A stretch of DNA of 64,000 nucleotides from Opitutaceae bacterium (lineage in GTDB: Bacteria > Verrucomicrobiota > Verrucomicrobiia > Opitutales > Opitutaceae), in assembly GCA_003164715.1 (NCBI GenBank), contig PLTZ01000009.1, forward strand, positions 1-64,000. The letters are read 5' to 3'. The translations under genes were made by a program, and so were the position numbers. Under the pieces are notes generated by a model. The model searched no databases. It was not told where the DNA came from and saw nothing but the letters and a program-made list of their open reading frames with translations. Shown piece by piece: positions 9,619-36,064 of this stretch. How positions within the stretch are numbered: position 1 is the first letter of the stretch; each line of letters opens with the position of its first letter.

Positions 9619-10764
9619 CTACTTGACCGAGAAGCGGTAGATCGTGGTGCTCCTGAAGGTCTCGCCCGGGCGCAGCAGGGTGGAGGGAAACCCGGGCTGG
9701 TTCACCGAATCGGGATAGTGCTGCGTCTCCAGGCAGAATCCCGCGTGGCGCGGGTAGGCCTGGCCGTACTTCCCGACGATCGTCCCGTCGAGTCCATTGG
9801 CTGTGTAGAGCTGGACACCGGGCTGGTCCGTCGACACCTCCAGCGCGCGGCCCGTCGCCGGGTCCTGAGCGCGGGCCGCGAGGACGAGGCCGCGTCCGCC
9901 GCCTTCGATCACGAAGTTGTGGTCGTAGCCGTTCGTCTTGCCAGGGACCTTTTTGATGTCCCTGCCGATCGGCTTGGGCTGGGTGAAGTCGAGCGGGCCG
10001 CCGGCCACGTCGGCGATCACCCCCGTCGGGATCAGGCCGTCGTCCGTCGGCGTGTACTTGCTGGCCTTGATCTGGAGAACCTGCCCAAGGACGTCGCCCT
10101 TGCATGAGAGGTTGAAATAGCTGTGGTTGGTCAGGTTGACGGCCGTCGTCTTGTCGGTCGTGGCCTCGTAGTCCATTCGGACCTCGTTGCCGTTCGTCAG
10201 CGTGTAGGTCAACTTGACCTTGAGTGTGCCCGGGAAGCCCTCGTTGCCGTCCGGGCTCACGTGGTTGAGGACCACGGACGGCCCGTTGGGCCCGTCCACG
10301 GCCTCCGCCGTCCACACCACCTTGTCGAAACCCTTGATCCCGCCGTGAAGCGTGTTGGGCGGGTTGTTGATCGCGAGGGTGTAGGTCCTTCCGTCGATCG
10401 TGAACTTGCCCCTGGCTATCCGGTTGGCGACCCGTCCAACCACCGCCCCGAAGCACGGGTTGTAGCCGAGGTACTGCGCCAGATTGTCAAACCCGAGGAC
10501 GACGTCGCCCATCCGCCCGGTCCGGTCCGGGACATGGAGCTCGGTGATCACCGCCCCGTAGGTGATGATCTTGCAGACCAGGCCGTCGGCGTTGGTCAGG
10601 GTGTAGAGGTCGACTGCGGTGCCATCCGGCAGCGTTCCGAATGCGGACTTGGATATGCTTGCGGCCATAAGATTGGGGGTGATAAGCGCGGCGGCTAGCG
10701 AGAGGATCAGCACGGCCCTGCGCGGGTACTGGGTGGGGGTCAGGGGACCCATGGAGCCCATCAT
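9619..10764 (-). CDS. galM: Aldose 1-epimerase, exported
   Basis: A 381-residue galactose mutarotase. An N-terminal hydrophobic segment (AVLILSLAAALITPNLMAAS) after two arginines looks like a signal peptide, so it probably acts in the periplasm. Family motifs: GRVANRIARGKF, the catalytic His in NTLHGGIKGFD, the second His in NLTNHSYFNLS and the catalytic Glu in GFCLETQHYPDS. It is the last gene of the amino-sugar operon, 38 bases behind the sugar porter, and may equilibrate anomers of released sugars before uptake. A second ATG four codons in is an alternative start. Confidence 0.92.
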   Translation of the reverse strand: MMGSMGPLTPTQYPRRAVLILSLAAALITPNLMAASISKSAFGTLPDGTAVDLYTLTNADGLVCKIITYGAVITELHVPDRTGRMGDVVLGFDNLAQYLGYNPCFGAVVGRVANRIARGKFTIDGRTYTLAINNPPNTLHGGIKGFDKVVWTAEAVDGPNGPSVVLNHVSPDGNEGFPGTLKVKLTYTLTNGNEVRMDYEATTDKTTAVNLTNHSYFNLSCKGDVLGQVLQIKASKYTPTDDGLIPTGVIADVAGGPLDFTQPKPIGRDIKKVPGKTNGYDHNFVIEGGGRGLVLAARAQDPATGRALEVSTDQPGVQLYTANGLDGTIVGKYGQAYPRHAGFCLETQHYPDSVNQPGFPSTLLRPGETFRSTTIYRFSVK

Positions 10765-10802: not shown

Positions 10803-12599
10803 TCATTGCCGCGGACGCCGCTCGAAGAGCTGCTCGATCTCCTCCAGGGTCTTGCCCTTGGTCTCCGGCAGGAAGAAGACGGCGGTGACGAAATAGACCA
10901 CGGTGCAGCCCGCAAACAGGAAGAACATGGTCGAGTAGCCGTACTTGCCGACGGTCGGCAGGAAGACGGCGGCGATGGTGGTGGAGACCGCCTGGTTGAG
11001 GGTGAGCGCGACGCTCATCCCATTCGACCGGATTCGCGTCGGCATCAGCTCGGAGAGCGCGAGCCAGACGACAACCCCGGGGCCGATCGCAAAGAACGCC
11101 ATGAAGGAGAAGGTGAACGCGGCCGTGAGCCAGCCGTTCCCCTGGCTCGGAACCGGCGTGATCAGGGCATTCTCGATCCTCAGGGGGGCGGTCCTTGCCT
11201 CACCCAGGCTGGCGAGCGGGTTGGAAATGAACGCGCTCACCTTGTTACTCGGAAGGCTGGCCTCGCGGCTGATCTCAAGCGGCGGGGCGGCGGGGTCGTC
11301 CGAACGGACGACGGCGGTGGCGGAGCGGAACCCGCCGTAGGAGTAGATCACGCTCAGGGTGAGCGGCCTTCCCGCCAGCGCCCGGTCCGCCTCGCCGGCG
11401 GTCGCCAGCAGCCGCTGCGCCGACTCCGCGTTAAAGACAATCCTGGCGTCCTGGCCCGGGCCCACCGCGGCTTGGACGGCCTCCCTTGCGTCGACACGGA
11501 GCCTTTCGGTGCGGTGGAAGAGCACGCCGACGGCAATCAGCGAGGCGATGATGCCCGCGGTCCCAATGGAAAGCAGGAACTTGCGCCCCTTGCGGTCGAC
11601 GAGCATGACCGCGACCATCGTCATCAGGAAGTTGACGAGCGTGAACAGCAGGTTCCCGTAGTGGGCCTGGACGTCGGAGAGGCCGCCCTGGATGAAGATG
11701 TCGGCGTTGTAGCCGATGATGGAGTTGACGCCGGTCGCCTGGTTGCAGGCGAGGATGACGCAGGCGAGGACGAACGGGATCACGTACCTGCGGCTCAGGA
11801 GGGGCTCCTTGGCCCCCCCGGCGCGCGCGGAGTCCTTCGCGTGCTCCGCCGCCGCGTTTGCCTCCATCTCCCTCACCTCGAGGTCGGCCTGCTCCGCGTC
11901 CCGCGAGCGCAGAAGCGCCCGGCGGGCATCCTCCCTCCTGCCCCGCAGAAAGAGCCAGCGGGGAGACTCGGCGACGATCAGGCTGCCGATCACGAACAGG
12001 ATGCCGGGCGGCAGCGACACCCAGAAAATGCTGCGCCACGCCGAGTCGTTGACGGCAAAGAGCTTGGCCGGGTCGCCCAGCTTGGCAACGCGGTCGACCT
12101 TGTAGCTGAAGTAGAGGGCGACGATCGCCGCGACGACGAAGCCGAACACGAGCATCCACTGGAACACGCCCGTGCCCTTGCCCCTGTTCGTTGAACCGAG
12201 GCACTCGGCCAGGTATAGGGGGATCACTACGCCCACGAGCCCGCCGCTGATTCCCTGGAGCAGGCGCCCGAGGACAAGGGGGGTGTAGCCGTGCGACAGC
12301 GCGATGATGGGAATGCTCGCGACGAAGAGGAGGCCGCTCAGCGTCATCAGCCACTTGCGCCCCATCCAGTCGGCCAGCATCCCTGCGGCGAGTGTGGAAA
12401 CGGCGCTGCCGAGGAGGACCGCGGCGACGACGAACGACAGCTGGCCCGCGTCCAGGCCCGAGGTCGCCTTCAGGTAGGGGAACGCGCCCGCGATGATCCC
12501 CACGTCGATGCCGTAGAGGAGGCCGCCGAGGCCGGCGACGAAGAGCAGCAGGCGGTTGTACGCGGTCTTATCGCCTAGGGGGATCGCGGTTGGGGGCAT
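10803..12599 (-). CDS. MFS sugar porter with a large periplasmic insertion
   Basis: A 598-residue major-facilitator sugar:H+ symporter of the XylE/GLUT family. Signatures are DVGIIAGAFPYLK in helix 1, ADWMGRKWLM, GRLLQGISGGLVGVVIPLYLAE, ESPRWLFLRGR in the central loop, VNSIIGYNAD in helix 7 and FFLPETKGKTLEEIE at the C-terminus. Ordinary members are about 450-500 residues. The excess is a soluble insertion of roughly residues 362-490 between predicted helices 9 and 10, facing outward. Its place behind the GH20 gene suggests it imports the released N-acetylhexosamine, which is inference. The long upstream frame to 12848 lies inside the GH20 gene and is ignored. Confidence 0.9.
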   Translation of the reverse strand: MPPTAIPLGDKTAYNRLLLFVAGLGGLLYGIDVGIIAGAFPYLKATSGLDAGQLSFVVAAVLLGSAVSTLAAGMLADWMGRKWLMTLSGLLFVASIPIIALSHGYTPLVLGRLLQGISGGLVGVVIPLYLAECLGSTNRGKGTGVFQWMLVFGFVVAAIVALYFSYKVDRVAKLGDPAKLFAVNDSAWRSIFWVSLPPGILFVIGSLIVAESPRWLFLRGRREDARRALLRSRDAEQADLEVREMEANAAAEHAKDSARAGGAKEPLLSRRYVIPFVLACVILACNQATGVNSIIGYNADIFIQGGLSDVQAHYGNLLFTLVNFLMTMVAVMLVDRKGRKFLLSIGTAGIIASLIAVGVLFHRTERLRVDAREAVQAAVGPGQDARIVFNAESAQRLLATAGEADRALAGRPLTLSVIYSYGGFRSATAVVRSDDPAAPPLEISREASLPSNKVSAFISNPLASLGEARTAPLRIENALITPVPSQGNGWLTAAFTFSFMAFFAIGPGVVVWLALSELMPTRIRSNGMSVALTLNQAVSTTIAAVFLPTVGKYGYSTMFFLFAGCTVVYFVTAVFFLPETKGKTLEEIEQLFERRPRQ

Positions 12600-12615
12600 C
12601 GTGGGCGGCCGGGGG

Positions 12616-14763
12616 TTACTTGGAGGGATCAACCGGCGGCTTGGGGGACGCGGTCGAGATGACGAGCATGCGCCACTGGTCGTCCGAGAGGCCCTTGCGC
12701 CCGGCCTGGCGGGCCGCCGCGGCCGCGAGCAGCCGCATGGACTTGAGGGCCGGAAGCTCCGTGGCCGACTCGTTGGGCTCGGCGGCCCGGTCGAGCACCG
12801 CGAGGCCCGCGGCAAGCCTAGGGTCCGCCAGCGGGACGCCCGAGGCAATCGAGCCCAGGGCCTCCACCCCCACGGCGCCCGCGTCCACGAGCGCCCGCCC
12901 GGCAGGAATCGCCTCCCTGACGGCCGGATAGATTCCGGCGAGTCGGTCGGCGACCTCCTTGCCCGCGGCGCTCCACGCCCTCAGTTGTCCCTCGATCGCA
13001 TCGGCTTGGGCGCGGTCGATCCCGCCGGGGGCGAACAGCATGCGGTCCACCGCGTCGGCGAATTCCCGGGAGGGGGCGCTTTCCGGAAGCGCCGCGTCCG
13101 CCAGGCCGACCAGAGGCACCAGCTGGTTGCCCCAGATCTGGAGTGCCCCGCGCTGATAATGCTTCACGGGTTCGAGCAGGCCGATGACGGTCCTCAGGGA
13201 ATCGTCCCCCGGGGCTCCGAGGTTCTCGCCGACCAGGTGGCGCAGCATGATGTCGCGGTTGCGCTCGTGTAGGGCGCCCGCCTCGCTTAGCCGCGCGCTG
13301 ACGATTGCGAGCCTGCGGTACATCTCCGCAACGTCCCTGACGGCGGCCGGCGACCAGAGGCGCTCGGCGATGGCGGCCGTGCGGGGCCAGATGCGCGAGT
13401 CGATCGTCTCCGGGGAGACCCACTCCGACCACATGGTGGCCTCGCCGCCGAGGACGTGGGCCCGCTGCGGGGCCGTGAGCGGGGACGAGTCCGGGAGGGG
13501 CTCGACGGAGTAGTGGTCCGACGCGGGGTAGCACAGGTCGATGTAGAACCCGTTTGAAAGGATGCCGTCGAATCCGAGCACGGCCGAGTCCGCGAGGGCC
13601 TCGGTGCCGCGCCACGAATCGATCACGCAGTCCCTGGGGAGCTCCGGGTTCTCGATCTCGTCCCAGCCGACGAGCCGCTTGCCGGCGCGAGCGAGGATCG
13701 CGTTGATCCTCTTGTTGAAGAGCGCATGAAGCGCCTCGTTGTCCTTCAGGCCGTGCTCGCGTTTGAAGGCCTGGATCCTGGGGCTGGCGTTCCACTGCAC
13801 GCCATTGTTCTCGTCGCCCCCGATGTGGATGAACCTGTCGGGAAAGAGGGCCGCCATCTCCCCGAGGAAGTCGCCAAGGAGCGCGTAGGTCGCCTCGTTG
13901 GTGGGGTCGAGCACCGGGTTGAACACGCCCCACTGGCGCTCGATCCCATACGGCCCGGGCAGGCTCGCGAGCTCCGGGTGCGAGACGACCCAGCTCGTGG
14001 CGTGGCCCGGGATGTCGAATTCCGGGACCACCCGGATCCCGCGCTCGGCCGCGTAGCGGATGACCTCGCGCATCTGCGCCTGGGTGAAGTACCTCCCGTC
14101 GGAGCCCTTGGCGGTGAGCTCGGGATGGGTGAGACTCTCGATCCGGAACCCCTGGTCGTCCGTGAGGTGCAGGTGCAGGACGTTCAACTTCACCACGGCC
14201 ATCGCGTCGAGGTTGCGCTCGATCACCTCGATCGGCTGCCAGTGGCGGGCCGCGTCGATCATGAGGCCGCGCCACGGAAACCTCGGCTGGTCCCGGATCT
14301 CGACGGGCGGAAGGAACCACCCGTCCCTGTCCCGCTGAAGGAGCTGGAGGAGGGTCTCGAGGCCGTGCATGGCCCCGAAGTCGTTCGGGGCCCTCAGCAC
14401 CGCCTGCGACCCGCCCACCTCGAGCGTGTAGGACTCGTCCTCGCATTCCGAGGGGACCGCCGCCCCGGCGCCGGCGCAGTCCACCAGCAGCCTGAACCCG
14501 GCCGCATTGCCGCCGCTGGCGGGCCCGCCGGTTCGCGAGCCCCACCGTCCCACGGCGCGCGCGATCGCGGAGCTAAGGCGGGGCCCCGCCGGCCTTTGGG
14601 CGGAGACCTCGAGTCCTCCGCCCGCGGGAACGCGGCCCGCCTCCACGCGCGCCTGCGCCGGCGCGGGCATCAAGTCGGCCGGAAGCGGGGCGGCCCCCGC
14701 GGGGGCCATCGCCCCCACGGCGGCGCTAAAGAGGCAGATCGCGAAGGAATTCCTCTGGGGCAT
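12616..14763 (-). CDS. GH20 beta-N-acetylhexosaminidase, exported
   Basis: A 715-residue exo-enzyme releasing terminal GlcNAc or GalNAc from glycans or chito-oligomers. It starts with a signal peptide (FAICLFSAAVGAMAPAGAA), followed by a GH20b-like N-terminal domain. The TIM barrel begins at FPWRGLMIDAARHW and has LNVLHLHLTDDQGFRI, VVPEFDIPGHATSW and the catalytic Asp-Glu pair in IHIGGDENN. The last 200 residues are an extra helical domain. Its start overlaps the end of the NagB-PIG-L gene by 38 bases, and the porter gene follows after 16 bases. Confidence 0.94.
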   Translation of the reverse strand: MPQRNSFAICLFSAAVGAMAPAGAAPLPADLMPAPAQARVEAGRVPAGGGLEVSAQRPAGPRLSSAIARAVGRWGSRTGGPASGGNAAGFRLLVDCAGAGAAVPSECEDESYTLEVGGSQAVLRAPNDFGAMHGLETLLQLLQRDRDGWFLPPVEIRDQPRFPWRGLMIDAARHWQPIEVIERNLDAMAVVKLNVLHLHLTDDQGFRIESLTHPELTAKGSDGRYFTQAQMREVIRYAAERGIRVVPEFDIPGHATSWVVSHPELASLPGPYGIERQWGVFNPVLDPTNEATYALLGDFLGEMAALFPDRFIHIGGDENNGVQWNASPRIQAFKREHGLKDNEALHALFNKRINAILARAGKRLVGWDEIENPELPRDCVIDSWRGTEALADSAVLGFDGILSNGFYIDLCYPASDHYSVEPLPDSSPLTAPQRAHVLGGEATMWSEWVSPETIDSRIWPRTAAIAERLWSPAAVRDVAEMYRRLAIVSARLSEAGALHERNRDIMLRHLVGENLGAPGDDSLRTVIGLLEPVKHYQRGALQIWGNQLVPLVGLADAALPESAPSREFADAVDRMLFAPGGIDRAQADAIEGQLRAWSAAGKEVADRLAGIYPAVREAIPAGRALVDAGAVGVEALGSIASGVPLADPRLAAGLAVLDRAAEPNESATELPALKSMRLLAAAAARQAGRKGLSDDQWRMLVISTASPKPPVDPSK

Positions 14764-16693
14764 ATCGTTTGAAGGCCTCGATTGCCTCGTATTCCGCGAG
14801 GCCCAGCGCGTTGTACGTCTCGGCCAGGCGTCTGCTGCGGTCCTCCGAACGCTGCCAGAATTCCCTCCGGTCGTCCCCGAGGAAGAGCGCTATGTCCTTC
14901 TGGGTCTCGTGGCAGAATATCGCCCGCCGGCGGCGCAGCACTTCCTGGGGGCTGAGCGGGACGGCCAGGTCGATCTCGTCCGCGGACCACTCGGACCACG
15001 CGCCCCGGTAGAGCCAGAGCTCGCTCTCGCGCACCCACGGCTCGCCGGAGTGCCTGGCAAGGGCGTCGCGAAGGGCGTGCAGGCAGAGCCGATGGGTGCC
15101 GTGGGGATCGTCGAGGTCGCCCGCCGCGAAGATCAGGTGCGGGCGGATGGCCCCCAGAAGCTCCCGCATGACCGATCGGTCCCTGTCCCCGAGCTGGCGC
15201 CTGCTGCCGGGCCTCGCGTGGTAGAACGGCATGTCGAGGAAGTGGAGGCGCCCCGACGGGACGCCGCACACGCGGGCGGCTGCGATGGCCTCCTGTCGGC
15301 GGACAAGGCCCTTCCAGTTGTGGACCTCGGGCGTCTCGGGGAGGGAGCCCGTGGACTCGTGCGCATCGCACAGCGCGCACAGCCTTTCGACGTTTGCCGG
15401 GCCCGCGAGGCCCGAGTCGCCCACGAAACGCAGGGCGCGGGCGAGCGCCTCGTCGGAGACGGCATTCGCCCCCGACACCTGGTAGGCGACATGGACCTCG
15501 TGGCCGTGCTCGGCCAGGCGGCAGAGGGTGCCGCCCATCCCGATTACGTCGTCATCGGGGTGGGGGGAGAGCACGAGGACCCGCTTCGGGAACACGCCGG
15601 CCGAAAGGGCGCGCAGCGGGCGAACCGGGGCGTCGCCGGGCTTCGTGCGCCTCGGGTCCCGCCCCCCCGGCCATCCCGTGATCGTGTGCTGGAGTTGGTA
15701 GAAACCCGCCAGGTTGACCTCGTAGGCCGAGCCCTGGGTCCTGAGGAGGTCCTGGAGCCCCGCCTCGTTGTAGTCGTCGTCGGTGAGCTTCAACACGGCC
15801 TTTTTCCTGAGCTGGGAGAGCCAGATGATCGCGCGGCGCACCATCGCGGCGTCCCACTCGAGGCCGAGGTCGCCGAGGGCCCCCAGCAGCCACGGCGTAC
15901 GGTAGCGGGTCAGCGCGCCGGCCGCGGCCCGGTCGATGACGAACTGGGTCTGGTCGTGCTCCTGGAGGAAGGACGCGGTGACCTGGGGCGTGACGGGCCC
16001 CTCGGCCGCCGCGCGCACGATCTCGGCCTTGTGCTGGCCCCAGGCCAGCAGGACGATCCTGCGGGCCTCGAGGATCGTGCGCACACCTATGGTGATCGCG
16101 TATTTCGGCGTGTGCTCCTCGCCCCCGAAGTCCCCCGCGGCGTCGCGCCGCGTCAGGGAGTCGAGAGTCACCAGCCGCGTGCGCGAGCGCCGGGGGCTCC
16201 CGGGCTCGTTGAAGCCGATGTGGCCGGTGCGCCCGATCCCGAGCACCTGGAAATCGATCCCGCCCGCGGCCTGGATCCGCTCCTCGTAGTCGCGGCAATG
16301 CGCGTCGAGCGACGCTGACGGCGCCGTACCGTCGGGCAAGTTGATGCTGGTGGGAGGGATGTCGACGTGGTCGAACAGGTGCGCCTGCATGTAGTGGCGG
16401 TAGCTTCGCGGGCTCGACGGCGCGATCGGGTAGTACTCGTCCAGGTTGAACGTGACGACGTTCGAGAAGCTGAGCACCTCCTCACGGTGGATCCTGACCA
16501 GCTCGGCGTAGAGCGCCAGGGGAGTGGAGCCGGTGGCCAGGCCGAGCACCGCGGTGCGCTTCGCCTTCTGCCTGTCGCGGATGAGCGCGGCGATTTCGCG
16601 GGCGACGGACTGGGAGGCCTCGGCGCTGCTCGCGAACACAGCGAGCGGGACGTGCTCGAACCTGCTGGTAGCTGGGGTCGGCGGGCCGGTCAT
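14726..16693 (-). CDS. nagB: Glucosamine-6-phosphate deaminase fused to a PIG-L/LmbE deacetylase domain
   Basis: A 655-residue fusion. Residues about 20-280 are NagB, converting glucosamine-6-P to fructose-6-P and ammonia: LGLATGSTPLALYAEL, FNLDEYYP and GIGRTGHIGFNEPGS with the active-site Asp/His/Glu. Residues about 370-640 are a PIG-L domain with the zinc motif LSPHPDDDVIGMGG. The same fusion is known from Bacteroidetes NagB proteins. A fused N-deacetylase could supply glucosamine-6-P from GlcNAc-6-P; no nagA is in the window. It is the first gene of the operon and starts 46 bases from a -10-like hexamer next to the conserved operator. Confidence 0.93.
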   Translation of the reverse strand: MTGPPTPATSRFEHVPLAVFASSAEASQSVAREIAALIRDRQKAKRTAVLGLATGSTPLALYAELVRIHREEVLSFSNVVTFNLDEYYPIAPSSPRSYRHYMQAHLFDHVDIPPTSINLPDGTAPSASLDAHCRDYEERIQAAGGIDFQVLGIGRTGHIGFNEPGSPRRSRTRLVTLDSLTRRDAAGDFGGEEHTPKYAITIGVRTILEARRIVLLAWGQHKAEIVRAAAEGPVTPQVTASFLQEHDQTQFVIDRAAAGALTRYRTPWLLGALGDLGLEWDAAMVRRAIIWLSQLRKKAVLKLTDDDYNEAGLQDLLRTQGSAYEVNLAGFYQLQHTITGWPGGRDPRRTKPGDAPVRPLRALSAGVFPKRVLVLSPHPDDDVIGMGGTLCRLAEHGHEVHVAYQVSGANAVSDEALARALRFVGDSGLAGPANVERLCALCDAHESTGSLPETPEVHNWKGLVRRQEAIAAARVCGVPSGRLHFLDMPFYHARPGSRRQLGDRDRSVMRELLGAIRPHLIFAAGDLDDPHGTHRLCLHALRDALARHSGEPWVRESELWLYRGAWSEWSADEIDLAVPLSPQEVLRRRRAIFCHETQKDIALFLGDDRREFWQRSEDRSRRLAETYNALGLAEYEAIEAFKRYAPEEFLRDLPL

Positions 16694-16738
16694 TGGGGGT
16701 GATTGCGGAAAGGTTGCGGGTCTTTAGGGAAGGTTCCG

Positions 16739-16792
16739 ATGATATTCTTGGCGGCTCCGTTAAAAAATGGCAGAAATGACGATGTTTTTAAC
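16739..16792 (-). promoter_or_regulatory. Operator/promoter of the nagB operon (site 1 of a two-site regulon)
   Basis: Bases 16762-16792 match a second site at 20066-20096 at 27 of 31 positions, with the shared ends AAAAAATGGCA and GATGTTTTTAAC. Here the site also forms a perfect inverted repeat, GTTAAAAA (16759-16766) and TTTTTAAC (16785-16792). CAGAAATGAC at 16771 recurs as CAGAAATGTC at 16792, 21 bases on, a spacing suited to AraC-type binding. On the minus strand the T-tract is followed, after exactly 17 bases, by TATCAT (16744-16739), a -10 box. The same geometry is seen at site 2. Confidence 0.65.
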
Positions 16793-16796
16793 AGAA

Positions 16797-17690
16797 ATGT
16801 CAGAAACGCCGAACGCCCGCATACTCTCCCTCGAAAAGCTCGCCAACCTGCTGCCCTCTCCGCTCAGGCCGCTGCACGGCAAGCGCGTGGCTCCTCTCGC
16901 GCTTCCCGACAACATCGTCTGCTTCTGCCGCCGCTCGGCGACCGACCTGAACCGGCCGCAACGCGGCCGCGCGCTCCACCACCGCTTTGTGCTGATACTC
17001 GCCCTGGAGACCGCGGTGACCGTCGCCGTGGACGACCGCGCGATCCGGCTCAAGCCCAGCGAGGGTCTGCTTGTGCTTCCCTTTCAGTTCCACGACTACA
17101 TCCAGCCGGCGCGCGAGGACCTGATGTGGCTCTTCATCACGTTCGACATGATCGACGCCGCGCCGCTCCAGGCGCTCCGGTTCCGCCCGTTCGTGATCAC
17201 ACAGGTCGTGCGCCAGACCTGCGCGGAGCTGGTGGAGGCCTACCTGACGCGCGGCGAGGGGGACCTCGCAAGCCTCCTGCTCTCCGTCCTGCTGCAGAGA
17301 ATCCGGCAGGCCGAGCCGATACTCAGAAGGCACCAGAGGCCGCCGGTTTCGCCCGGACTCATCATGCAGGTCAACCAGCTCGCCCAGAACAAAGAGGAGC
17401 CCTTGAGCGTCAATGAGATCGCGCGGTCGCTCGGTATCAGCGCAAGCCATCTCAGGGCGCGTTTCCGGGCCTCCTGCGGGGTGAGCCTGGGCCGCCACTT
17501 GAGGAGGCTGCGCCTGGAGAAGGCCTGCGGCCTCTTGCGCCTAAGCCAGAGGCGCGTCACCGAGATCGCGGAGCTCTGCAGTTTCTCCTCGATCTACAGC
17601 TTCAGCCGGGCGTTCCACACGGCGTACGGGGTGTCCCCGATGGCTTACCGCCACGGTGACAGGGCGCACAGGGCATCGGATCTGGCCTAG
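16797..17690 (+). CDS. AraC-family transcriptional regulator
   Basis: A regulator of about 297 residues. The N-terminal half is a cupin-like sensor region (ALHHRFVLILALETAVTVAV, LLVLPFQFHDYIQP). The C-terminal 100 residues are the double helix-turn-helix: LSVNEIARSLGISASHLRARFR and VTEIAELCSFSSIYSFSRAFH, followed by YGVSPMAYR. ATG codons at 16767, 16776 and 16782 fall inside the predicted operator, so ATG 16797 is preferred, though nothing else decides it. It is divergent from the nagB operon and is the obvious candidate to bind both conserved sites. Its stop shares the CTAG at 17687-17690 with the stop of the convergent PIG-L gene. Confidence 0.88.
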   Translation: MSETPNARILSLEKLANLLPSPLRPLHGKRVAPLALPDNIVCFCRRSATDLNRPQRGRALHHRFVLILALETAVTVAVDDRAIRLKPSEGLLVLPFQFHDYIQPAREDLMWLFITFDMIDAAPLQALRFRPFVITQVVRQTCAELVEAYLTRGEGDLASLLLSVLLQRIRQAEPILRRHQRPPVSPGLIMQVNQLAQNKEEPLSVNEIARSLGISASHLRARFRASCGVSLGRHLRRLRLEKACGLLRLSQRRVTEIAELCSFSSIYSFSRAFHTAYGVSPMAYRHGDRAHRASDLA

Positions 17691-18538
17691 GCGAACGCGT
17701 TCAGCCGCCGCAACACGTCCTCCGCGAGCCGCGCCACAAGTGAAGCGGTGAGGTCCTGGACCGAGGGGCTCCCGTCGCGGATGACCGGGGTCAGGTCCAT
17801 CGCCCAGGTTATTCCGGCGAGGTTGTCGGTGGCGTGGGAGGCGTGAAAGGTCGCGTTGGACGCCCGCCGGCCGACGGTGGCGAGGTCGTAGCGCTTGCCC
17901 CCGGCGATTTGCGAGTCGAAGGCGGCCAGCAGCTTGCGCGAGAGCTCGGGGTGCCGCCCTGAGTCGAGCGCGACCTTGTCCGCGTCCGGAAGCCAGTCGA
18001 GGTTCCGCCACACCTCGCATCCGAACACCCTGCCGGGCCTGTCGGCCGCGGGCAGTAAACGGATCGCCTCGAGGCAGCGCAGGAGCACGGCGACGTGGGT
18101 GTCGTGCTTGTCCGCGGGATTGTGGAGAAAGACGACTTGCGGCCTGCAGCCCGAGAAGACCGCCCTCAGGTCGCCCGCGACCCCGGGGTGGCCCGGGCGC
18201 TTCACCTCGGCGCTCGTGTACCCAAGCTGTAGCTGGATCGAGTACTGGCCGAGTCGGGCTGCCTCACGCTGCTCGCTGCGCCGGACGGCGAGCATCTGCT
18301 CGTCCGTGTACGAGGCGTATCGGCCGGTTCTCGGCGATCCCGCCCCGTTCGTGACGACAACCCCGCCGAAGGCGTTGCCCGGCACGCCGATGCAGTCGCT
18401 AATGCCCGACTGGGCCATGATCTCGATGTCGTCCTGGTGGGCCGTAACGCAAAGGTGCGTCACCCGCCCGAGCGCCTCGTCCGGGGAGAAGGACGAGTCG
18501 GGAACAAAGATATCCGCTGCCGGGTTCGAGAGCTTCAT
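17687..18538 (-). CDS. PIG-L/LmbE-family N-deacetylase
   Basis: A 283-residue zinc-dependent deacetylase-like protein. The metal site is seen as THLCVTAHQDDIEIMAQ near residue 30, in place of the usual PHPDDxE, and a downstream HxxH-like HDTHVAV. PIG-L enzymes remove the acetyl group from GlcNAc moieties. It lies four bases behind the ROK kinase gene and shares the proposed regulon, so a role on GlcNAc or GlcNAc-6-P is plausible but not shown. No signal peptide is apparent. ATG 18538 is chosen because the upstream frame lies in the ROK gene. Confidence 0.82.
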   Translation of the reverse strand: MKLSNPAADIFVPDSSFSPDEALGRVTHLCVTAHQDDIEIMAQSGISDCIGVPGNAFGGVVVTNGAGSPRTGRYASYTDEQMLAVRRSEQREAARLGQYSIQLQLGYTSAEVKRPGHPGVAGDLRAVFSGCRPQVVFLHNPADKHDTHVAVLLRCLEAIRLLPAADRPGRVFGCEVWRNLDWLPDADKVALDSGRHPELSRKLLAAFDSQIAGGKRYDLATVGRRASNATFHASHATDNLAGITWAMDLTPVIRDGSPSVQDLTASLVARLAEDVLRRLNAFA

Positions 18539-18542
18539 AGGA

Positions 18543-19973
18543 CTATCTTGGGTCCGACCGCAGCGCATGCGAGCCCGCAGGCGCGCCAATGGAGGGAAGG
18601 CTCGCGGCGGCGATCGCCTGCCCGTGGCGCTTGTCCTTTTCGTCGGGCATGCGCACGCGCACACGCGAGGCGACGGCCGGGAACTCGGTGGCGAGCACCT
18701 CCCTGGCGCGCTGGAGGATCCTCTCCCCGCCGTGCCCCGAGGTCACCCGCCCCATGACGAGCACGTGCTTCAGTTCGTAGAAGTCCGCGTAGTGCCCGAT
18801 CGAGTATCCAAGGTAGGACCCCACCGAGTCGTAGATCCTCTCGGCCCTCGGGTCGCCGGCGGCCATCGCCTTCTGGACGGCGACAAGGCGCTCGGGCGCG
18901 GGCATCGAGGCGTCGAATCCGAAGCCCGCCCGGTCAGACAGGCGGGAGACCGCCTGCTGCGAGAAGTATTGAACGCCGCAACCGACGTCGCCCGACCATT
19001 CGTCGCTCGGGGCGTCCGTACGGTAGTCGATCGGGGCAAACGCGAGTTCATTGAGCCAGGGGGTGATGTCCCCGCCGGGCCGAACGTAGCCGGCGGCCTG
19101 GCTCGTGCCCATGGAGATCCCCAGCACCGCGTTGTCGCCGAGCGACATCGACCCCGCGAGCGCCGCGACCTCCCCGTCGTTCGCCACCACGAAGGGGACG
19201 CCACCCCACCGCTCCTGGAGCGTGAAGAAGAGCCTGCGCACGCGGCTTGCGAACAGGTCCAGGGGGATCCCCCTGAAGATGGAGGCGACCCTGACCTCGT
19301 TGTTGACGTAGATGCCCGCCGCGCTGCCCCCGATCGTGTCCACCCTAGGCATGTGGGCCGCCGCCTTCAGCAGCGACTCGTGGATGCCCTCGATGTGGTA
19401 GGCCGGATCCTTCTGGAAGTACGGGTCCCATGGCGTCTCCTCGGAGTAGACGACTTTGCCGTCGACGACCGCGGCGGCCTTCCGGTCGCTTCCGCCGATA
19501 TCGAATCCGATCCGGCATCCGTCGAGGTGGCGGCCCAAGGGCAGCCCCGGGGTGCGTTCCGTCGGAAGCACCTCAACATCAACGGCTTCAATATTAAACG
19601 TCCTCCGGTAAACCTTCTCGCCCATGAACCCGTGGTCAAAGGACCTTGCGCCTGTCGCGCTATAGACGACCCCGAGGTGCGCCGCGATTTCGGGCGCGCC
19701 GGCGACGCGCACCGTGCATCCGCCCTTCTGCCAGAGGAGGAACTTGAGCAGGCGCTCCGCATATCGAAGGCTGAGGGGAGCGTCGGCGTGATCGGCGGCC
19801 AGAACCCGGCTCTGGTGCCGCGAAACGCCGGCGTCCGGCCGCTCGAGCGTGAGGGTCAGCGTGCGCGCCTTCGGATCCGTGGCCACAATGGCGCGGTACG
19901 CGCGGTTCCACAGGGCGGCGGGGACAAACTCGGGGTCTAGCGGGGGGCGAAAGAATGGGGAGATGTTTAACAT
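18543..19973 (-). CDS. ROK-family sugar kinase with an extra N-terminal domain
   Basis: About 476 residues. The C-terminal 320 are a ROK kinase: GCRIGFDIGGSDRKAAAVVDG at about 152 is the ATP phosphate loop and FVVANDGEVAALAG contains the likely catalytic Asp. SGDVGCGVQYFSQQA occupies the place of the ROK zinc loop. The first 150 residues are not part of the ROK fold and I do not recognise them. Given the neighbours, GlcNAc or a related amino sugar is the likely substrate (inference). In-frame ATGs at 20018 and 20015 are alternative starts. No ribosome site decides between them. Confidence 0.82.
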   Translation of the reverse strand: MLNISPFFRPPLDPEFVPAALWNRAYRAIVATDPKARTLTLTLERPDAGVSRHQSRVLAADHADAPLSLRYAERLLKFLLWQKGGCTVRVAGAPEIAAHLGVVYSATGARSFDHGFMGEKVYRRTFNIEAVDVEVLPTERTPGLPLGRHLDGCRIGFDIGGSDRKAAAVVDGKVVYSEETPWDPYFQKDPAYHIEGIHESLLKAAAHMPRVDTIGGSAAGIYVNNEVRVASIFRGIPLDLFASRVRRLFFTLQERWGGVPFVVANDGEVAALAGSMSLGDNAVLGISMGTSQAAGYVRPGGDITPWLNELAFAPIDYRTDAPSDEWSGDVGCGVQYFSQQAVSRLSDRAGFGFDASMPAPERLVAVQKAMAAGDPRAERIYDSVGSYLGYSIGHYADFYELKHVLVMGRVTSGHGGERILQRAREVLATEFPAVASRVRVRMPDEKDKRHGQAIAAASLPSIGAPAGSHALRSDPR

Positions 19974-20042
19974 GAGCGGTCGGGCTTGGGCGCGGAGGAT
20001 GGGAGTGATGCCCATCAACGCGGCGGGGAGCTCACAGGGAAC

Positions 20043-20096
20043 ATCCTACCGACCAAAGCACGGACAAAAAATGGCACAATCGATGATGTTTTTAAC
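20043..20096 (-). promoter_or_regulatory. Operator/promoter of the ROK-PIG-L genes (site 2 of the regulon)
   Basis: Bases 20066-20096 repeat the site at 16762-16792 at 27 of 31 positions. On the minus strand the T-tract is followed, after exactly 17 bases, by TAGGAT (20048-20043), the same spacing as TATCAT at site 1. The operator therefore covers the -35 region, as expected for an activator that touches polymerase. The left arm of the inverted repeat is degenerate (GACAAAAA instead of GTTAAAAA). The site lies in the gap between the ROK gene and the divergent PfkB gene. Confidence 0.62.
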
Positions 20097-20212
20097 GAAA
20101 TTGACAGTATGGCGCCCCAATGCCCGCGGATTCCCGTGCGCCGCTACCCCCGGAATGATGTTTCCCGTGCGGGCACATGCGCCATAATGGTGCGCCCGAG
20201 CCCGCTTTCCCC

Positions 20213-21151
20213 ATGCCCGCCCCTCAATTGCCGAGCACCGCAAACGTCTACCTCTACGGAATGATCGTCTTATCGACGGTCCACCGGATCGTGGGGGATT
20301 TCCCGGAGGCCGACGGCTACGGCGAGATCGAGGAGACCCACGTGGTGCCGGGCGGCGAGACGGGAAACTCCGCGCTCGTCCTGGCGCGATGGGGGCACCG
20401 CGTGAAGGTCGCCGGGCCCTTTCTCGGCCGGCAGACCCGCGAGGAAATACTCGGGTTCCTGGCGCCGCGGGGAATCGATTGCTCGGGCCTGCGCTATGAC
20501 CCTTCCTTTGACGGCGTCCGCGACTTGGTCGTTGTGGGCGGCAAGTCGCGGGCCGTGTTTGGCCGCTTCGGGCACTACTTCAGCGGGTCGAGGCGGTGGG
20601 CGGATCCGGAGCGCGCCGACATCGCGGCCGCCGACATCGTGGGTATCGACCCCTTCTTCGGCGCGCAGTCCGCGGAGGTTGGAAGGCTCTGCATCGAGCT
20701 CGGCCGTCCTTATGTGACAATCGACTGCGAGCCGGAAAGCGCCCTCCATAGGTGCGCAGCAGCGACCGTCGTTTCCGCCGAGTATCTGCGCGGCCGCTTC
20801 CCGTCCAGGGATCGCAGGGAGCTGCTGCGGCTCTATGCCGCGCAGACCGCTGGCCTGGTGATCATGACCTGCGGCTCGGAGGAGATCCTCTTCGCCAGGG
20901 GACGCGGGCGGAAGCGCAGCCTGAAGCCGTTCACCATCGTTCCGAAGAGCACCCTCGGGGCCGGCGACACCTTTCGGGGCGGGGTGGTGCACGCCCTCCA
21001 TAACGGGCTGAGCGACGAGGGCGTCGTCCGGTTTGCGGCGGCGACGGCAGCGTGCGTCTGCCGCAGGTTTCCGGTGGCCCTCGACCCTCCCGGCTTGGAG
21101 GAGATCCGCGCGCTTGCGGAGGGTGGCGCGCAGCCCGGGCCCGAGCTCTGA
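20213..21151 (+). CDS. PfkB-family carbohydrate kinase
   Basis: A 312-residue ribokinase-fold kinase. The N-terminal VVPGGETGNSALVLARWG is the sugar-binding region. The C-terminal STLGAGDTFRGGVVHAL is the PfkB signature with the catalytic Asp and anion hole. The substrate is not evident. Its position, divergent from the ROK gene across operator site 2, suggests a sugar in the same pathway. ATG 20213 is preferred, with ATG 20177 twelve codons upstream as the alternative. A glutamate-synthase-like gene follows after 51 bases. Confidence 0.85.
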   Translation: MPAPQLPSTANVYLYGMIVLSTVHRIVGDFPEADGYGEIEETHVVPGGETGNSALVLARWGHRVKVAGPFLGRQTREEILGFLAPRGIDCSGLRYDPSFDGVRDLVVVGGKSRAVFGRFGHYFSGSRRWADPERADIAAADIVGIDPFFGAQSAEVGRLCIELGRPYVTIDCEPESALHRCAAATVVSAEYLRGRFPSRDRRELLRLYAAQTAGLVIMTCGSEEILFARGRGRKRSLKPFTIVPKSTLGAGDTFRGGVVHALHNGLSDEGVVRFAAATAACVCRRFPVALDPPGLEEIRALAEGGAQPGPEL

Positions 21152-21202: not shown

Positions 21203-22624
21203 ATGCGGATGAGCGCGGCACCGACCAGCTGTTGGAATCCCAAGTACGCGTGGTTGCTCATTGATCGGGCGAGCCCGCCGAAGAGGGCGGCGCACGAAAG
21301 GGTCCGCGACTTTGGTGAGATCTACCTCAGCTATGACGAGTCGGCGGTGCGCGACCAGGCGAGCCGCTGCATCCAGTGCCCCAATGCGGGGTGCGTCGTC
21401 GGTTGTCCCTTGGCCAACCGCATCCCGGAGTGGCTCGCCCTCGCGTCGGAGGGCGATTTTCTCGGTGCGGCGGACGTCTCGGGCTCGACAAGCAACATGC
21501 CGGAAATCTGCTCGCGCATCTGCCCCCACGAGCGGCTGTGCGAGGGCGCGTGCATCCTCAATGGGCGCGCCGAACCGGTGGCCATCGGAGCCGTCGAGTG
21601 CTTCATCAACGAATACGCGCTCAGGCGTGGCGCGGTGACGGCCGCGACAGGGCCTCCGAACGGCTTGAGCGTTGGCGTGGTCGGCTCGGGGCCCGGCGGG
21701 TTCGCCTGCGCGGATGAGTTGGCCAAGCAGGGCTTCGCGGTGACGGTCTTCGAGTCGCAGTCCACACCCGGCGGGCTCCTGGCCAACGGCATCCCCGGGT
21801 TCAAGCTGGACAAGGCCGTTGTGGCCCGCCGCATCGGGCTGCTCAGGAGGCGCGGGGTTCAGCTGTGCCTCGGCGTGCGCGTCGGCTGGGACCTGTCGCT
21901 GCGCGAGCTGCAGGAACGGTTCGACGCCGTGTTCATCGGCACCGGGGCCCAGCAGGGCAAGGTGCTCGATGTTTCGGGCGCCGATCTGCAGGGGGTGATC
22001 CAGGCGCTGCCCTTCCTCGTGGGCGCCAATGCGCCGCATTCTCCCGGCGGCCCTTCGGTCGACTTAGAGGGGAAGCGTGTCGTGGTGCTGGGCGGGGGCG
22101 ACACGGCGATGGATTGCCTGCGTACGGCGATTCGCTGTGGCGCCCGGGAGGCGCTGTGCCTTTACCGCCGCGACCTGGCCAATATGCCGGGCGCCCGCCA
22201 GGAGTACGCCAATGCCCTGGACGAGGGCGCCGCGTTCCAATTACTGGCGAAGCCCGTTCGCCTTGAGGGGACGCAGACCGGCGGCGTCATCCGGGTGCAC
22301 TGCGTGCGCATGGAACTTGGGCCGGCCGGCGCCGGGGGTCGGCGTATACCGCGCCCCGTGGCAGGCTCGGAGTTTGCCGTGCCGGCCGACGTCGTGATTG
22401 TCGCCTACGGCTTCGATCCCGTTCCGTTCCCACCCGGAAGCGACTTTTGCTGCGTGGAAACGAACGAGTGGGGCGGCATCGTGGTCGACGCGGACCAGAT
22501 GACCCGCACGGCTGGGGTCTTTGCCGGCGGCGATTCAACGCGCGGCCCGAGCCTCGTGGTCCACGCGGTCCGGGACGGTCGCCGAGCCGCCTCCGGGATC
22601 ATGCGCTACCTCGGGGCGCAGTGA
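21203..22624 (+). CDS. GltD/NfnB-like FAD-NAD(P)H oxidoreductase (paralogue 1)
   Basis: A 473-residue protein like the glutamate synthase small subunit and NfnB. The N-terminal domain binds [4Fe-4S] clusters through CIQCPNAGCVVGCP and ICPHERLCEGAC. FAD binding is seen in VGVVGSGPGGFACADEL and NADPH binding in VVVLGGGDTAMDCLRTA. No glutamate synthase large subunit is near. It faces the end of the hydrogenase operon, with a paralogue (30014-31444) at the other end. That suggests both pass electrons between NAD(P)H and that complex (inference). A TTGCCT-N17-TAGGAT promoter-like pair sits at 21171-21199, which would favour the ATG at 21209 as a leaderless start. Confidence 0.88.
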   Translation: MRMSAAPTSCWNPKYAWLLIDRASPPKRAAHERVRDFGEIYLSYDESAVRDQASRCIQCPNAGCVVGCPLANRIPEWLALASEGDFLGAADVSGSTSNMPEICSRICPHERLCEGACILNGRAEPVAIGAVECFINEYALRRGAVTAATGPPNGLSVGVVGSGPGGFACADELAKQGFAVTVFESQSTPGGLLANGIPGFKLDKAVVARRIGLLRRRGVQLCLGVRVGWDLSLRELQERFDAVFIGTGAQQGKVLDVSGADLQGVIQALPFLVGANAPHSPGGPSVDLEGKRVVVLGGGDTAMDCLRTAIRCGAREALCLYRRDLANMPGARQEYANALDEGAAFQLLAKPVRLEGTQTGGVIRVHCVRMELGPAGAGGRRIPRPVAGSEFAVPADVVIVAYGFDPVPFPPGSDFCCVETNEWGGIVVDADQMTRTAGVFAGGDSTRGPSLVVHAVRDGRRAASGIMRYLGAQ

Positions 22625-22665: not shown

Positions 22666-23154
22666 TCACGCGCCGGGACCGGCAAGGCCGAGAGCGAGCG
22701 TGGTTATGCGGCCGGCGGCAACGCCGACTGCCTGCTGCACTTCGGGGGTGAGCGAGACGCTCAGGGTGAGCGCGTCCTTCACCTCGATCGCAAAGATCCG
22801 GACGTCCCGCGGCATCGCGAGCCCCAGCGTCCGGCCGAGCGCGAGCGTCTCGACGACGCCGACGAAATGAGGCGCGGCGATCCGCCGTCCCGCCAGCGCG
22901 TCGGCGTCAAACTCGTGGATGTGCCCGGGCGGCGCCTTCCCGGTCTCGATGGCGTCGACGAGGATCAGGTGTTCGCAGCCCACGATCTCGTCGAGCAGCG
23001 CGAGGCCCATCTCCATTGTTTCCCGCACCGCGCAGCCCGCCGCCCCGGCAAGGCGCGATCGGACGTCCCGCGCGACATGAAGTCCGACAGCGTCGTCGCC
23101 CAGTAGGTCATTGCCCAGGCCGAGGACGAGGACGCTTGCGCATGCGGCTGTCAT
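22666..23154 (-). CDS. Hydrogenase maturation protease
   Basis: A 162-residue HycI/HyaD-family endopeptidase that removes the C-terminal peptide of the [NiFe] large subunit after nickel insertion. VLVLGLGNDLLGDDAVG carries the nickel-sensing acidic residue. LILVDAIETGKAPG-like residues at about 62-75 hold the second metal ligand, and a His is present in AAPHFVGVVE. It is the last gene of the hydrogenase operon, 30 bases behind the large subunit, whose cleavable tail is present. Confidence 0.9.
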   Translation of the reverse strand: MTAACASVLVLGLGNDLLGDDAVGLHVARDVRSRLAGAAGCAVRETMEMGLALLDEIVGCEHLILVDAIETGKAPPGHIHEFDADALAGRRIAAPHFVGVVETLALGRTLGLAMPRDVRIFAIEVKDALTLSVSLTPEVQQAVGVAAGRITTLALGLAGPGA

Positions 23155-23184
23155 GGTCGGGGAGGCCGCGCCCGCGGGTTCTCC

Positions 23185-24711
23185 TCACTCCTGAACGAGC
23201 TCGCGGACAAGGGCGCCTGCGGAGTCGCGGATGCGCACCCGCAGCGGAAGGTGCCCGGGCAGCGAGTGGGTCGCGCAGCCGAAGCATGGGTCGTAGGCCC
23301 GGAACGCCATCTCGACCATGTTCAGGAGGCCCTCGGTGACCTTGTGCTTGCTGATCAGTCCCTTCGCGGCCTTCTCGACGCTCATGGCGATCCTCGCGGC
23401 ATTGTTCTGCGTCGCGACGATCAGGTTCGCCTTGGTGACCAGCCCGCGCTCGTCCGTCTCGTAGTGATGGAACAGCGTACCGCGCGGAGCCTCGACAACG
23501 CCTACGCCGATCGAGGGCTTCTTCGTGGGCAGCACCCGGATGTCCGAGCCGGTCAGCCCGGGATCGGCGGTGAGCGCGACCATTGTCTCTGCGGCCTGGA
23601 TCATCTCGACTACGCGCGCCCAGTGGTTCGCGAGGGTGTGGTGCACGGGCTTGCCGCCCAGGGCGTTGAAGTACTCCTCGTAGGCCTGCTGGGCGAGCGG
23701 AGTCGCCATGCCGTCCGCGACGTTGAGGCGCGCGAGAGGGGCGACCGCGTAGACGCTGGTCTGCGGCCCATCGGAGAACCCGTTCCAGCCGAGCGGGCGC
23801 AGATAGCAGAACTTCATGTAGCTCCATGGCTCGGTGCGCTCGGCGATGAAGTCGCGGTACCGCGACGCCGGGAAGCTCGCATACTCCTTTCCGGTCGGGT
23901 CGACGACGCGGATCTGCCCGTCGTAGAAGTTCACCCGGTTCTGCGGATCGACAAGGCCCATGTAGCACGTGCGGTGCGTATAGGTGTCGGATGTGATCAG
24001 CTTCACGTAGTCGGCGTTCTTAAGCACAAGGTCGTGGAAGACCTGGTTTGTGAACATCGCGAAATCGAGCGCGTCCTTCGCGAGCTCCTGGAAGCGCGGC
24101 AGGTCGGCGGGCGCGAGACCCTTGGCGACGCCGCCGGGCAGGCCCATCACGGGGTGTATCACCTTGCCGCCAAAATACGTGATCAGCTCGCGCACGCGCC
24201 GGCGCATGGCGATGACGCTTTTGCCGACCTCGACCCCGACCTTGCCGATCACGCCTACGAGGTTGCGCTCCGCGGCCGGCGCCTGCGGGCCGACGATGAA
24301 ATCCGGGCCGCCGAGCACATAGACGTGAAGCGCGTGGTCCTCGAGGATGAACGCGTTGTACACAAGCTCGCGGATCTTGCGCGCGGTCGGGGTGGGCTCG
24401 ACCTTGTACAGGTCGTCGAGCGCCTTGGTCGCGGCCATGTGGTGCGCCGTCGGGCAGACACCGCAGATGCGGCTGGTGATCTGGGGCATGTCCTCGGCCG
24501 GCCGGCCGAGGCTGAAGACCTCGAAACCCCGGAGTTCCGGGATTTGCAGATACGCGTGTTCGACGTCGCCATCGCCGTTGAGGAAGATCTCGATCCGGCC
24601 GTGGCCCTCGAGCCGGGTGATCGGCTCGATGGTGACGCGGCGGCGCTGATCATGTGCCTCGGCCGCTGGGGCGGCGGATTCGTTCGTGACCTGATCGATG
24701 ACCGCGTTCAT
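23185..24711 (-). CDS. mvhA: [NiFe] hydrogenase large subunit, MvhA type (group 3c-like)
   Basis: The 508-residue catalytic subunit that oxidises or produces H2 at the NiFe centre. The first cysteine pair is in SRICGVCPTAHH and the second in DPCFGCATH near the C-terminus. About 26 residues follow the final His and would be cut off by the maturation protease encoded next. The MvhD and HdrABC neighbours place it with the cytoplasmic F420-non-reducing type that docks on heterodisulfide reductase. Its ATG overlaps the small subunit stop as ATGA. No hyp maturation genes are in the window. Confidence 0.94.
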   Translation of the reverse strand: MNAVIDQVTNESAAPAAEAHDQRRRVTIEPITRLEGHGRIEIFLNGDGDVEHAYLQIPELRGFEVFSLGRPAEDMPQITSRICGVCPTAHHMAATKALDDLYKVEPTPTARKIRELVYNAFILEDHALHVYVLGGPDFIVGPQAPAAERNLVGVIGKVGVEVGKSVIAMRRRVRELITYFGGKVIHPVMGLPGGVAKGLAPADLPRFQELAKDALDFAMFTNQVFHDLVLKNADYVKLITSDTYTHRTCYMGLVDPQNRVNFYDGQIRVVDPTGKEYASFPASRYRDFIAERTEPWSYMKFCYLRPLGWNGFSDGPQTSVYAVAPLARLNVADGMATPLAQQAYEEYFNALGGKPVHHTLANHWARVVEMIQAAETMVALTADPGLTGSDIRVLPTKKPSIGVGVVEAPRGTLFHHYETDERGLVTKANLIVATQNNAARIAMSVEKAAKGLISKHKVTEGLLNMVEMAFRAYDPCFGCATHSLPGHLPLRVRIRDSAGALVRELVQE

Positions 24712-25700
24712 AGCGAGAGGGTTTCAGCCCGCGCCGCCTGGCTCACGTTTCGCTGCAGGATCGAGTGGGGCAGCGCGTAGCGGTAGAAGGTGCCGAGGGG
24801 GTCCGGGATGCCGTCGAGCGCGAGGTTGATGCCCGCCTCGTCCTTTGCGGCGATGTTCGCGCAGAGGGATGAGAGCAGCTTCGCCCCCTGGTCCCTGACG
24901 CGCGAGGTCGGCCCGAAGCATCCGGAGCAGGGCATGTTGCCGCCGACGCAGAGCGCTCCGCAGCCTCCACGCGTCCCCGGGCCGCAGCAGACGACGCCCT
25001 GGGCGAGCAGGCATTTTTCAGGATCCAGTAGAATCTCGTGCGGGCGTCTGAACCCGGCGAAGCTCAGGTCCGACGGCTTTGAGGACTTTCGCGGGCACTC
25101 GTCGCACAGCGCCGTGTCCGGGGCGAGAACGCTGCCGCGCGGGGGCGGATTGCTCGAGAGCAGCATGGCGAGCGCCTCCTGCGTCAGTTTCGGAGTGGGA
25201 GGGCAGCCCGGGACGTAGTAGTCGACGGGCACGACTTGGTCGAGGGCGCGCACGGCCTGGTGCAACCTCGGCAGCTCGAGCTCATGGCCGTTGGCCTCAG
25301 ATTCGAGCTGGGGGCGCGACCTTCCGTCTTCGCCGAGAGTCGGAGCCTCCTCGTAGACGAAGCGCAGCAGCTGCTCCCGCGAGAACTGATTGGCGAGGCC
25401 CGGGACGCCGCCATGGCACGCGCACGCGCCGTAGGCGATCAGATGCTGGCTCTTCCGGCGCAGGAGCTGCGCCATCTCCTCCTGCTCGCTGGAGCGGATC
25501 GCTCCGTTCAGCAGGGTGGCGAACAGGGCGCCGTCGGGCAGGGCGGTTATGTCGCTCTTCTTGAAATCCATCGCCACCGGCCAGAACACGATGTCGACCG
25601 CATCGAGCACGCCGAGGATATCCTCGGCGAGGTCGACGACCGCCTCCTCGCAGCCGCCGCACGCGGCGCACCAGTAGAACGCGATCTTGGGCTTAGACAT
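24708..25700 (-). CDS. mvhG: [NiFe] hydrogenase small subunit, MvhG type
   Basis: The 330-residue iron-sulfur subunit carrying electrons from the NiFe site to MvhD. The proximal cluster ligands are seen in FYWCAACGGCEEA, GACACHGGVPG and YVPGCPPTP. Further cysteines (LCDECP, VVCCGPGTRGGCGALC, MPCSGCFGP) bind the medial and distal clusters. There is no Tat signal, which fits a cytoplasmic enzyme. A strong GGAGGT ribosome site lies 7 bases before the ATG, which overlaps the end of mvhD by 8 bases. Confidence 0.93.
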   Translation of the reverse strand: MSKPKIAFYWCAACGGCEEAVVDLAEDILGVLDAVDIVFWPVAMDFKKSDITALPDGALFATLLNGAIRSSEQEEMAQLLRRKSQHLIAYGACACHGGVPGLANQFSREQLLRFVYEEAPTLGEDGRSRPQLESEANGHELELPRLHQAVRALDQVVPVDYYVPGCPPTPKLTQEALAMLLSSNPPPRGSVLAPDTALCDECPRKSSKPSDLSFAGFRRPHEILLDPEKCLLAQGVVCCGPGTRGGCGALCVGGNMPCSGCFGPTSRVRDQGAKLLSSLCANIAAKDEAGINLALDGIPDPLGTFYRYALPHSILQRNVSQAARAETLSL

Positions 25701-28195: not shown

Positions 28196-28215
28196 GGGGC
28201 GGACGTCGTTTGGAT

Positions 28216-35959: not shown

Positions 35960-36064
35960 TCACATCCCCGGAAATCCGCCCTTACCCTTCATCGCCTCCA
36001 TCTGGCGCATGAACTTCTTCTGGTTCCCGCCCTTCATCATGCGCATGACCTTCTGCATCTGCTG
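35960..36064 (-). repeat. ffh 3'-end copy 2
   Basis: The last 34 codons plus stop of ffh are repeated here in the same orientation: 95 of 105 bases and 30 of 34 residues match the native end at 36922-37026. The copy reads QQMQKVMRMMKGGNQKKFMR then QMEAMKGKGGFPGM and stop. Homology stops abruptly on both sides, at the stop codon and at the first CAG codon. Upstream the frame runs into unrelated sequence, so it is not part of any gene now. It lies between the PIN toxin gene and the RHH antitoxin gene. Confidence 0.9.

Follow-up and report, generated by a model that had tools for sequence, protein, structure and literature searches.

Transcriptional activators such as AraC, MelR and MarA/SoxS recruit RNA polymerase at class II promoters. 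The E. coli class II promoters araBAD (I1/I2), melAB and rhaBAD have in common a regulator with a C-terminal double helix-turn-helix (HTH), adjacent half-sites, an operator that runs into the -35 region, and a regulator gene beside the target operon. In enterobacteria, amino-sugar genes are regulated by NagC, a member of the ROK family. For AraC, a two-state, two-site mechanism at I1/I2 has been described (PMC4486848). The N-acetylglucosamine (GlcNAc) regulon of Shewanella NagR, a LacI family regulator, comprises an outer-membrane component, a porter, a hexosaminidase, NagB, a kinase and a deacetylase (PMC3223726). Here we analyze the first 64,000 nucleotides of contig PLTZ01000009.1 of an Opitutaceae bacterium (assembly GCA_003164715.1), hereafter the window, in which two copies of one operator, sites A and B, precede amino-sugar operons and an AraC-family regulator gene (araC) lies between them. 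Very probably, the AraC-type regulator binds both operators of one local regulon and activates the uptake and catabolism of amino sugars. By analogy, the AraC class II activators would be its nearest relatives in mechanism; the locus differs from araBAD, melAB and rhaBAD in half-site sequence, in its amino-sugar targets and in having the operator over the likely start codon of the regulator. The Shewanella NagR regulon is nearest in content, with similar genes, but the Opitutaceae locus has an AraC-family regulator, PIG-L domains in the stead of NagA, and a direct-repeat operator.

The two copies of the operator, their -10 boxes and the regulator gene are located as follows:
16762..16804, minus strand: site A operator at the promoter of the NagB-PIG-L operon, 42-43 bp with its 31-mer core at 16762-16792; overlaps the araC 5' end
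16739..16744, minus strand: -10 box TATCAT, 17 nt past the T-tract of site A
20066..20108, minus strand: site B operator at the promoter of the ROK/PIG-L pair
20043..20048, minus strand: -10 box TAGGAT, 17 nt past the T-tract of site B
16797..17690, plus strand: AraC-family regulator, 297 amino acids (PF12833, PF00165, weak PF02311), between sites A and B

The original observation of a 31-base repeat, identical at 27 of 31 positions between 16762-16792 and 20066-20096, is correct, and the operator is in fact longer: similarity extends over 42 nt (16762-16803 versus 20066-20107, 81% identity) and no further. The 43-bp operator includes the TGNCATTT / TGCCATTT boxes and the GTTAAAAAC block. On the minus strand, both sites read CCATTTTTT, then 17 bases, then a -10-like hexamer, which is the identical spacing that had been claimed; the further claims that both sites precede minus-strand amino-sugar genes and that an AraC-family gene lies between them also hold. 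In three windows generated by an order-1 Markov model, the best direct 31-mer pair agreed at 25 of 31 positions. The remaining pairs in the window with at least 27 of 31 identities are confined to two repeated stretches (35.97-37.03 kb, matching itself, and 21.35-22.42 versus 30.16-31.22 kb), which are taken to be related coding sequence. The pattern AAAAATGGCAN8GATGTTTTTAAC, with up to 3 mismatches, has exactly two matches in the 3,788,902-base genome, sites A and B, and its reversed control has none. A 43-column profile built from 40 sites likewise finds only sites A and B (E 3e-11 and 4e-9), the third match in a search up to E 10 (E 1.7) abutting site A; genome-wide, the motif is therefore restricted to the two operons at which it was predicted.

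Sites were compared among 150 genomes of the family. The promoter-strand consensus of 40 distinct sites is TGkCATTTTT GTTAAAAACATCGTCATTTnTGCCATTTTT, a neutral spacer and TATnAT. The fixed distance from operator to -10 box that characterizes a class II promoter is found in 49 of 51 sites (the 55 available minus those of G077, L084:3492, and G012, L089:73, as well as L079:15828 and L098:686), which have TANNNT at position 49, versus 3 or fewer at each of the other offsets between 33 and 69. The exceptions are the araC-side site of G114 (CTTCAT) and the site of G058 (TATACT one base earlier). The weight matrix was made from 41 sites (40 distinct), L076:10751 and sites with more than 3 mismatches having also been dropped. 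The second class II feature, two direct half-sites about two helical turns apart, is present as an imperfect repeat: over 17 columns, an offset of 21 bp scores best (-0.32; next best, -0.60), and over 10 columns the offset of 21 scores 0.77, that of 30 scores 0.58 and the best inverted arms score 0.66. Judged by position, the operator would span about -70 to -30 relative to the transcription start, and by comparison with the positions of E. coli araI1/I2 this layout is read as class II activation.

In the proposed mechanism, a dimer of the AraC protein (16797-17690) would occupy each operator, contacting two direct half-sites at a spacing of 21 bp, of which the proximal one takes the place of a -35 box; since this half-site lies 17 bp from the TATnAT -10 box, the bound protein would recruit RNA polymerase. 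The signal would probably be an amino sugar or a chitin oligomer (chitin-derived GlcNAc). The targets in the window would be the operon of NagB-PIG-L, GH20 enzyme, porter and epimerase and the ROK/PIG-L pair, to which TonB receptors would be added in relatives. As the 5' end of araC lies under site A, occupancy of this site probably also represses the gene. Less plausibly, and in our view unlikely, the same regulator and operator could work in the opposite sense, with the AraC-type protein as a repressor that a sugar releases. The operator reaches the -35 region, where it would block polymerase, and its overlap with the 5' end of araC would also agree with repression of that gene. GlcNAc releases the Shewanella repressor NagR from its operator (PMC3223726). 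Such a repressor is at odds with a search of 16500-20400 in which no sigma-70-like -35/-10 pair was found, as a promoter of this kind should be weak unless an activator assists. It is also at odds with the position of the operator relative to the -10 box, which by analogy is that of the class II AraC activators.

The proposed pairing of regulator and operator is further supported by the co-occurrence of gene and site. The pattern derived from the window is found in 25 of the 150 genomes (35 sites; reversed control 0 in all), an AraC orthologue (E <= 1e-50) in 43, the NagB-PIG-L fusion in 78 and the profile (E <= 0.01) in 45. The profile is present in 39 of 43 genomes that have AraC versus 6 of 107 that lack it (Fisher 5e-25) and, among NagB-PIG-L carriers, in 36 of 40 versus 4 of 38. 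Fourteen genera contain genomes of both kinds; when the AraC labels were permuted inside genera, 39 was reached 0 times in 20,000 (mean 30.6, maximum 37). As the profile was trained almost wholly on sites from AraC-positive genomes, a table of the pattern alone and a leave-genus-out matrix are safer. The pattern alone occurs in 21 of 43 AraC-positive versus 4 of 107 AraC-negative genomes (Fisher 3e-10), and read the other way an AraC orthologue is encoded by 21 of the 25 pattern-carrying genomes versus 22 of the 125 without the pattern (Fisher 3e-10). With the leave-genus-out matrix the site is still recovered, 54 of 55 regions of AraC-positive genomes scoring 11.8 to 92.3, where two of the 55 are from G062 and G088 and eight regions of AraC-positive genomes that are all negative (L092, L115, L164, L165, L167, L168, L169 and L171, -34 to -58) were left out of the test. 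In 38 regions upstream of NagB-PIG-L from 36 genomes without AraC, the full matrix gives 21.2 in G097, 3.2 in G005 and negative scores in the others; its best scores in random DNA are -25 at 65% GC and 1.9 at 44% GC (30 x 64 kb each). Most AraC-positive regions exceed the AraC-less ones in length (up to 20 kb versus up to 2.8 kb), but these random-DNA scores indicate that the difference in length matters little. Related genomes thus have the same site at orthologous promoters, with its presence tied to the AraC gene. Together with the genome scan, they support the predicted local activator-operator pair for both operons, activation being suggested by the promoter architecture and AraC binding by the co-occurrence.

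Several observations weigh against this reading. AraC-positive G006, G019, G029 and G056 have no profile match, only weak matrix sites (15.5-44), and six genomes without AraC have a match: G012, G076 and G084 (E about 1e-3), G088 (at the first bases of a contig), G100 (E 2.7e-6, before a GH20 gene) and G062. The G062 site (L085 717-926) is a good one (score 76.7) before NagB-PIG-L, and all that is found of araC next to it is a fragment in two pieces (about residues 5-70), although 884 contig bases follow; either the operator has outlived an intact araC or the contig is misassembled. NagB-PIG-L has no upstream site in AraC-positive G019, G123 and G140, nor do the second NagB-PIG-L copies of G034, G037 and G046 (scores -34 to -58). 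The leave-genus-out exception is the araC locus of G134 (-5.6; its NagB promoter scores 50.8). Part of the association between site and araC is physical linkage, because many sites abut araC. The 21-bp repeat is imperfect, the offset of 30 and a partial inverted arrangement scoring nearly as high. Finally, the AlphaFold model of the regulator is poor (mean predicted local distance difference test score, pLDDT, 51; below 50 at residues 1-185), so that the HTH part alone is usable and the sensor domain is uninformative on the ligand.

Co-occurrence by itself cannot identify the binder, and the site might be occupied by another transcription factor, such as the ROK protein or a distant regulator; the four AraC-positive genomes without a profile match and the retention of the site in G062 beside an araC fragment would fit this. 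We consider it very unlikely, given the coupling of the site to the AraC gene within genera, the lack of an HTH domain in the ROK protein by Pfam, and a site form that suits a tandem AraC-type dimer.

Beyond the orthologues, G005 (L130 2417-2484) has a weak form of the site before NagB-PIG-L (the matrix score of 3.2 given above), with TACACT where the -10 box normally stands, and a more distant AraC-family gene (38%) divergent from NagB-PIG-L; from this genome, the pairing of site and AraC may be older than the orthologue threshold used. Outside the family, weak profile matches in 5 of 223 genomes of the order (genome size 0.7-0.9 Mb, E 3e-5 to 7e-4) are taken for chance or composition, the best of them (G320) spanning 35 of 43 columns.

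The genes behind the two sites are:
14726..16693, minus strand: NagB-PIG-L fusion, first gene behind site A (NF002557/PRK02122, glucosamine-6-phosphate deaminase-like, 892 bits)
12616..14763, minus strand: GH20 beta-hexosaminidase, behind site A
10803..12605, minus strand: major facilitator superfamily (MFS) sugar porter, behind site A (start chosen by hand; longest open reading frame from 12848)
9619..10764, minus strand: aldose 1-epimerase, behind site A
18543..20018, minus strand: divergent ROK-like protein, first gene behind site B (PF00480, E 5.6e-4, 20.0 bits versus a Pfam cut-off of 22.9)
17687..18544, minus strand: PIG-L family deacetylase, second gene behind site B (start chosen by hand; longest open reading frame from 18664)

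In the 41 regions first fetched from relatives (genes aligned only from residue 61 on being excluded), the site stands ahead of the first gene of the unit. It is in front of NagB-PIG-L in 29 of 31 cases, of ROK in 8 of 15 (5 of the other 7 are inside a NagB or MFS operon) and of GH20 in 3 of 11 (6 are inside an operon); the second PIG-L gene never has its own site (17 of 17 internal). Sites of further relatives precede GH20, ROK and TonB receptor genes. Several genera have a variant, GTCAAAAAGTTCATCATTTCTGACAATG, between araC and a large gene co-oriented with araC; all six of the large genes scanned encode TonB receptors, relative to which the operator is reversed. G135 has a site before an acetyl-CoA synthetase gene (L076 10751-10790), a target that would suit the use of acetate from GlcNAc deacetylation. 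The PfkB gene of the window (20177-21151, plus strand) was rejected as a target of site B: in G114 some 8.6 kb separate its orthologue from the ROK site, and no site precedes either of the two PfkB genes encountered.

Enterobacterial NagC resembles this locus in its amino-sugar targets and in the presence of a ROK protein in the regulon. The linked regulator is of the AraC family, not a NagC-type (ROK) or NagR-type (LacI) regulator with an N-terminal HTH, and the ROK protein has no HTH match in Pfam; unlike NagC, the latter is therefore more likely an enzyme. The C-terminal double HTH of the AraC family is present in the linked regulator (PF12833, E 6e-19, and PF00165, E 1e-16, within residues 218-296 of the open reading frame from 16767), and the PDB matches of this part are RamA, Rob, MarA and SoxS. 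A possible N-terminal cupin-like, ligand-binding domain is indicated by a weak match to PF02311 (22.1 bits versus a cut-off of 21.1). The first 7 of 12 named homologues are from metagenome-assembled genomes of Opitutaceae (86-91% identical).

Site A overlaps the 5' end of the araC open reading frame, which can open at 16767; the ATG at 16797 falls in the distal half-site. Among 28 araC-side sites, 26 have an ATG at this place in the distal half-site, from which a frame shared with araC stays open over 100 codons; the form ATGNCA is found in 24, and G103 and G080 read ATA instead. The operator thus covers the likely start of araC in most genomes with an araC-side site, which suggests that araC is autoregulated. 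Opened at the ATG at 16767, the extended araC frame also takes in site A (MAEMTMFLTEMSE), and a similar reading is possible at site B. Site B might then be left over from a duplication of the araC 5' end and the repeat be conserved coding sequence, but this idea is refuted, to the point of having almost no probability left, by sites before NagB-PIG-L, ROK, GH20 and TonB genes without adjacent araC and by conservation of the -10 box outside the frame, and in six congeners a TAA just inside the operator cuts the long frame (ATGGCATAA).

Comparison with the congeners suggests how site A arose. The arrangement in G094, G131, G150, G151, G153 and G154 is that of a TonB receptor facing araC and its operator (63-90% identical to that of G094; split in two in G154); a similar layout, with a receptor of 45% identity, is seen in G058. 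G094, G114, G131 and G153 have a separate operator for NagB-PIG-L, 4-10 kb from the araC-side operator. The genome of the window lacks such a receptor (best match 29%). At positions that discriminate the two types of operator, site A follows the araC/TonB type at 18 of 19 as far as position 12 and the NagB type at 14 of 16 from position 20 (the TonB-type set excluded the araC-side site of G114). As the far-left positions are araC coding sequence and those at the far right NagB leader, the informative part is the switch within the operator, which rests on few positions. By its sequence, site A appears to be a hybrid: two ancestral operators would have come together when a deletion took out the TonB receptor. 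In a tree of concatenated AraC, PIG-L and ROK proteins (13 genomes), G014 and the eight closest genomes have 100% support, and the nodes that place the genome of the window have 27-59; because of this weak placement, the direction of change, deletion in the window lineage, rests on the TonB arrangement shared by G058 and the six congeners. There may instead have been an insertion in the congeners, and in other genera too araC and NagB-PIG-L are divergent around one site. The araC-side operator of G114 (L061 11622-11690) is weak (score 66 versus 93 and 81 at the other two sites of this genome), and no TonB receptor like those of its congeners was found behind it; this site looks like one that has decayed after loss of its target.

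We tentatively propose a broader scenario, possible but short of probable, in which a family-restricted AraC regulator controls the use of chitin and GlcNAc through an operator that contains its own start codon (autoregulation), with scattered copies of the operator acting as sites of recombination. In the genome of the window, the araC/TonB operator would have recombined with the NagB operator, deleting the TonB receptor and its neighbours and leaving NagB-PIG-L under a hybrid operator, directly divergent from araC. The locus also provides a natural experiment in the loss, retention and recombination of operator copies during operon rearrangement.

The locus offers a sequence-defined, testable amino-sugar regulon for the Opitutaceae, for which literature searches showed no described GlcNAc regulator; judged by titles and the openings of abstracts, no AraC-type GlcNAc regulon in Verrucomicrobiota was found either. 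It would tie the NagB-PIG-L fusion, the divergent ROK protein, the GH20 enzyme and TonB receptors into one response.

Elsewhere in the window, consecutive genes on the minus strand (22666-29762) encode a NiFe hydrogenase large subunit, an Oxidored_q6 protein, FlpD/MvhD, an HdrA-like flavoprotein, a CCG-domain protein (HdrB-like), a Fer4 protein (HdrC-like) and a hydrogenase protease. These genes resemble an Mvh/Hdr-type cluster, here in a member of the Opitutaceae. Beside it on the plus strand is a Fer4_20/pyridine nucleotide oxidoreductase gene (21203-22624), with a similar stretch near 30.2-31.2 kb. A 105-nt direct repeat is present at 35960-36064 and 36922-37026 (90% identical, 962 bases apart).

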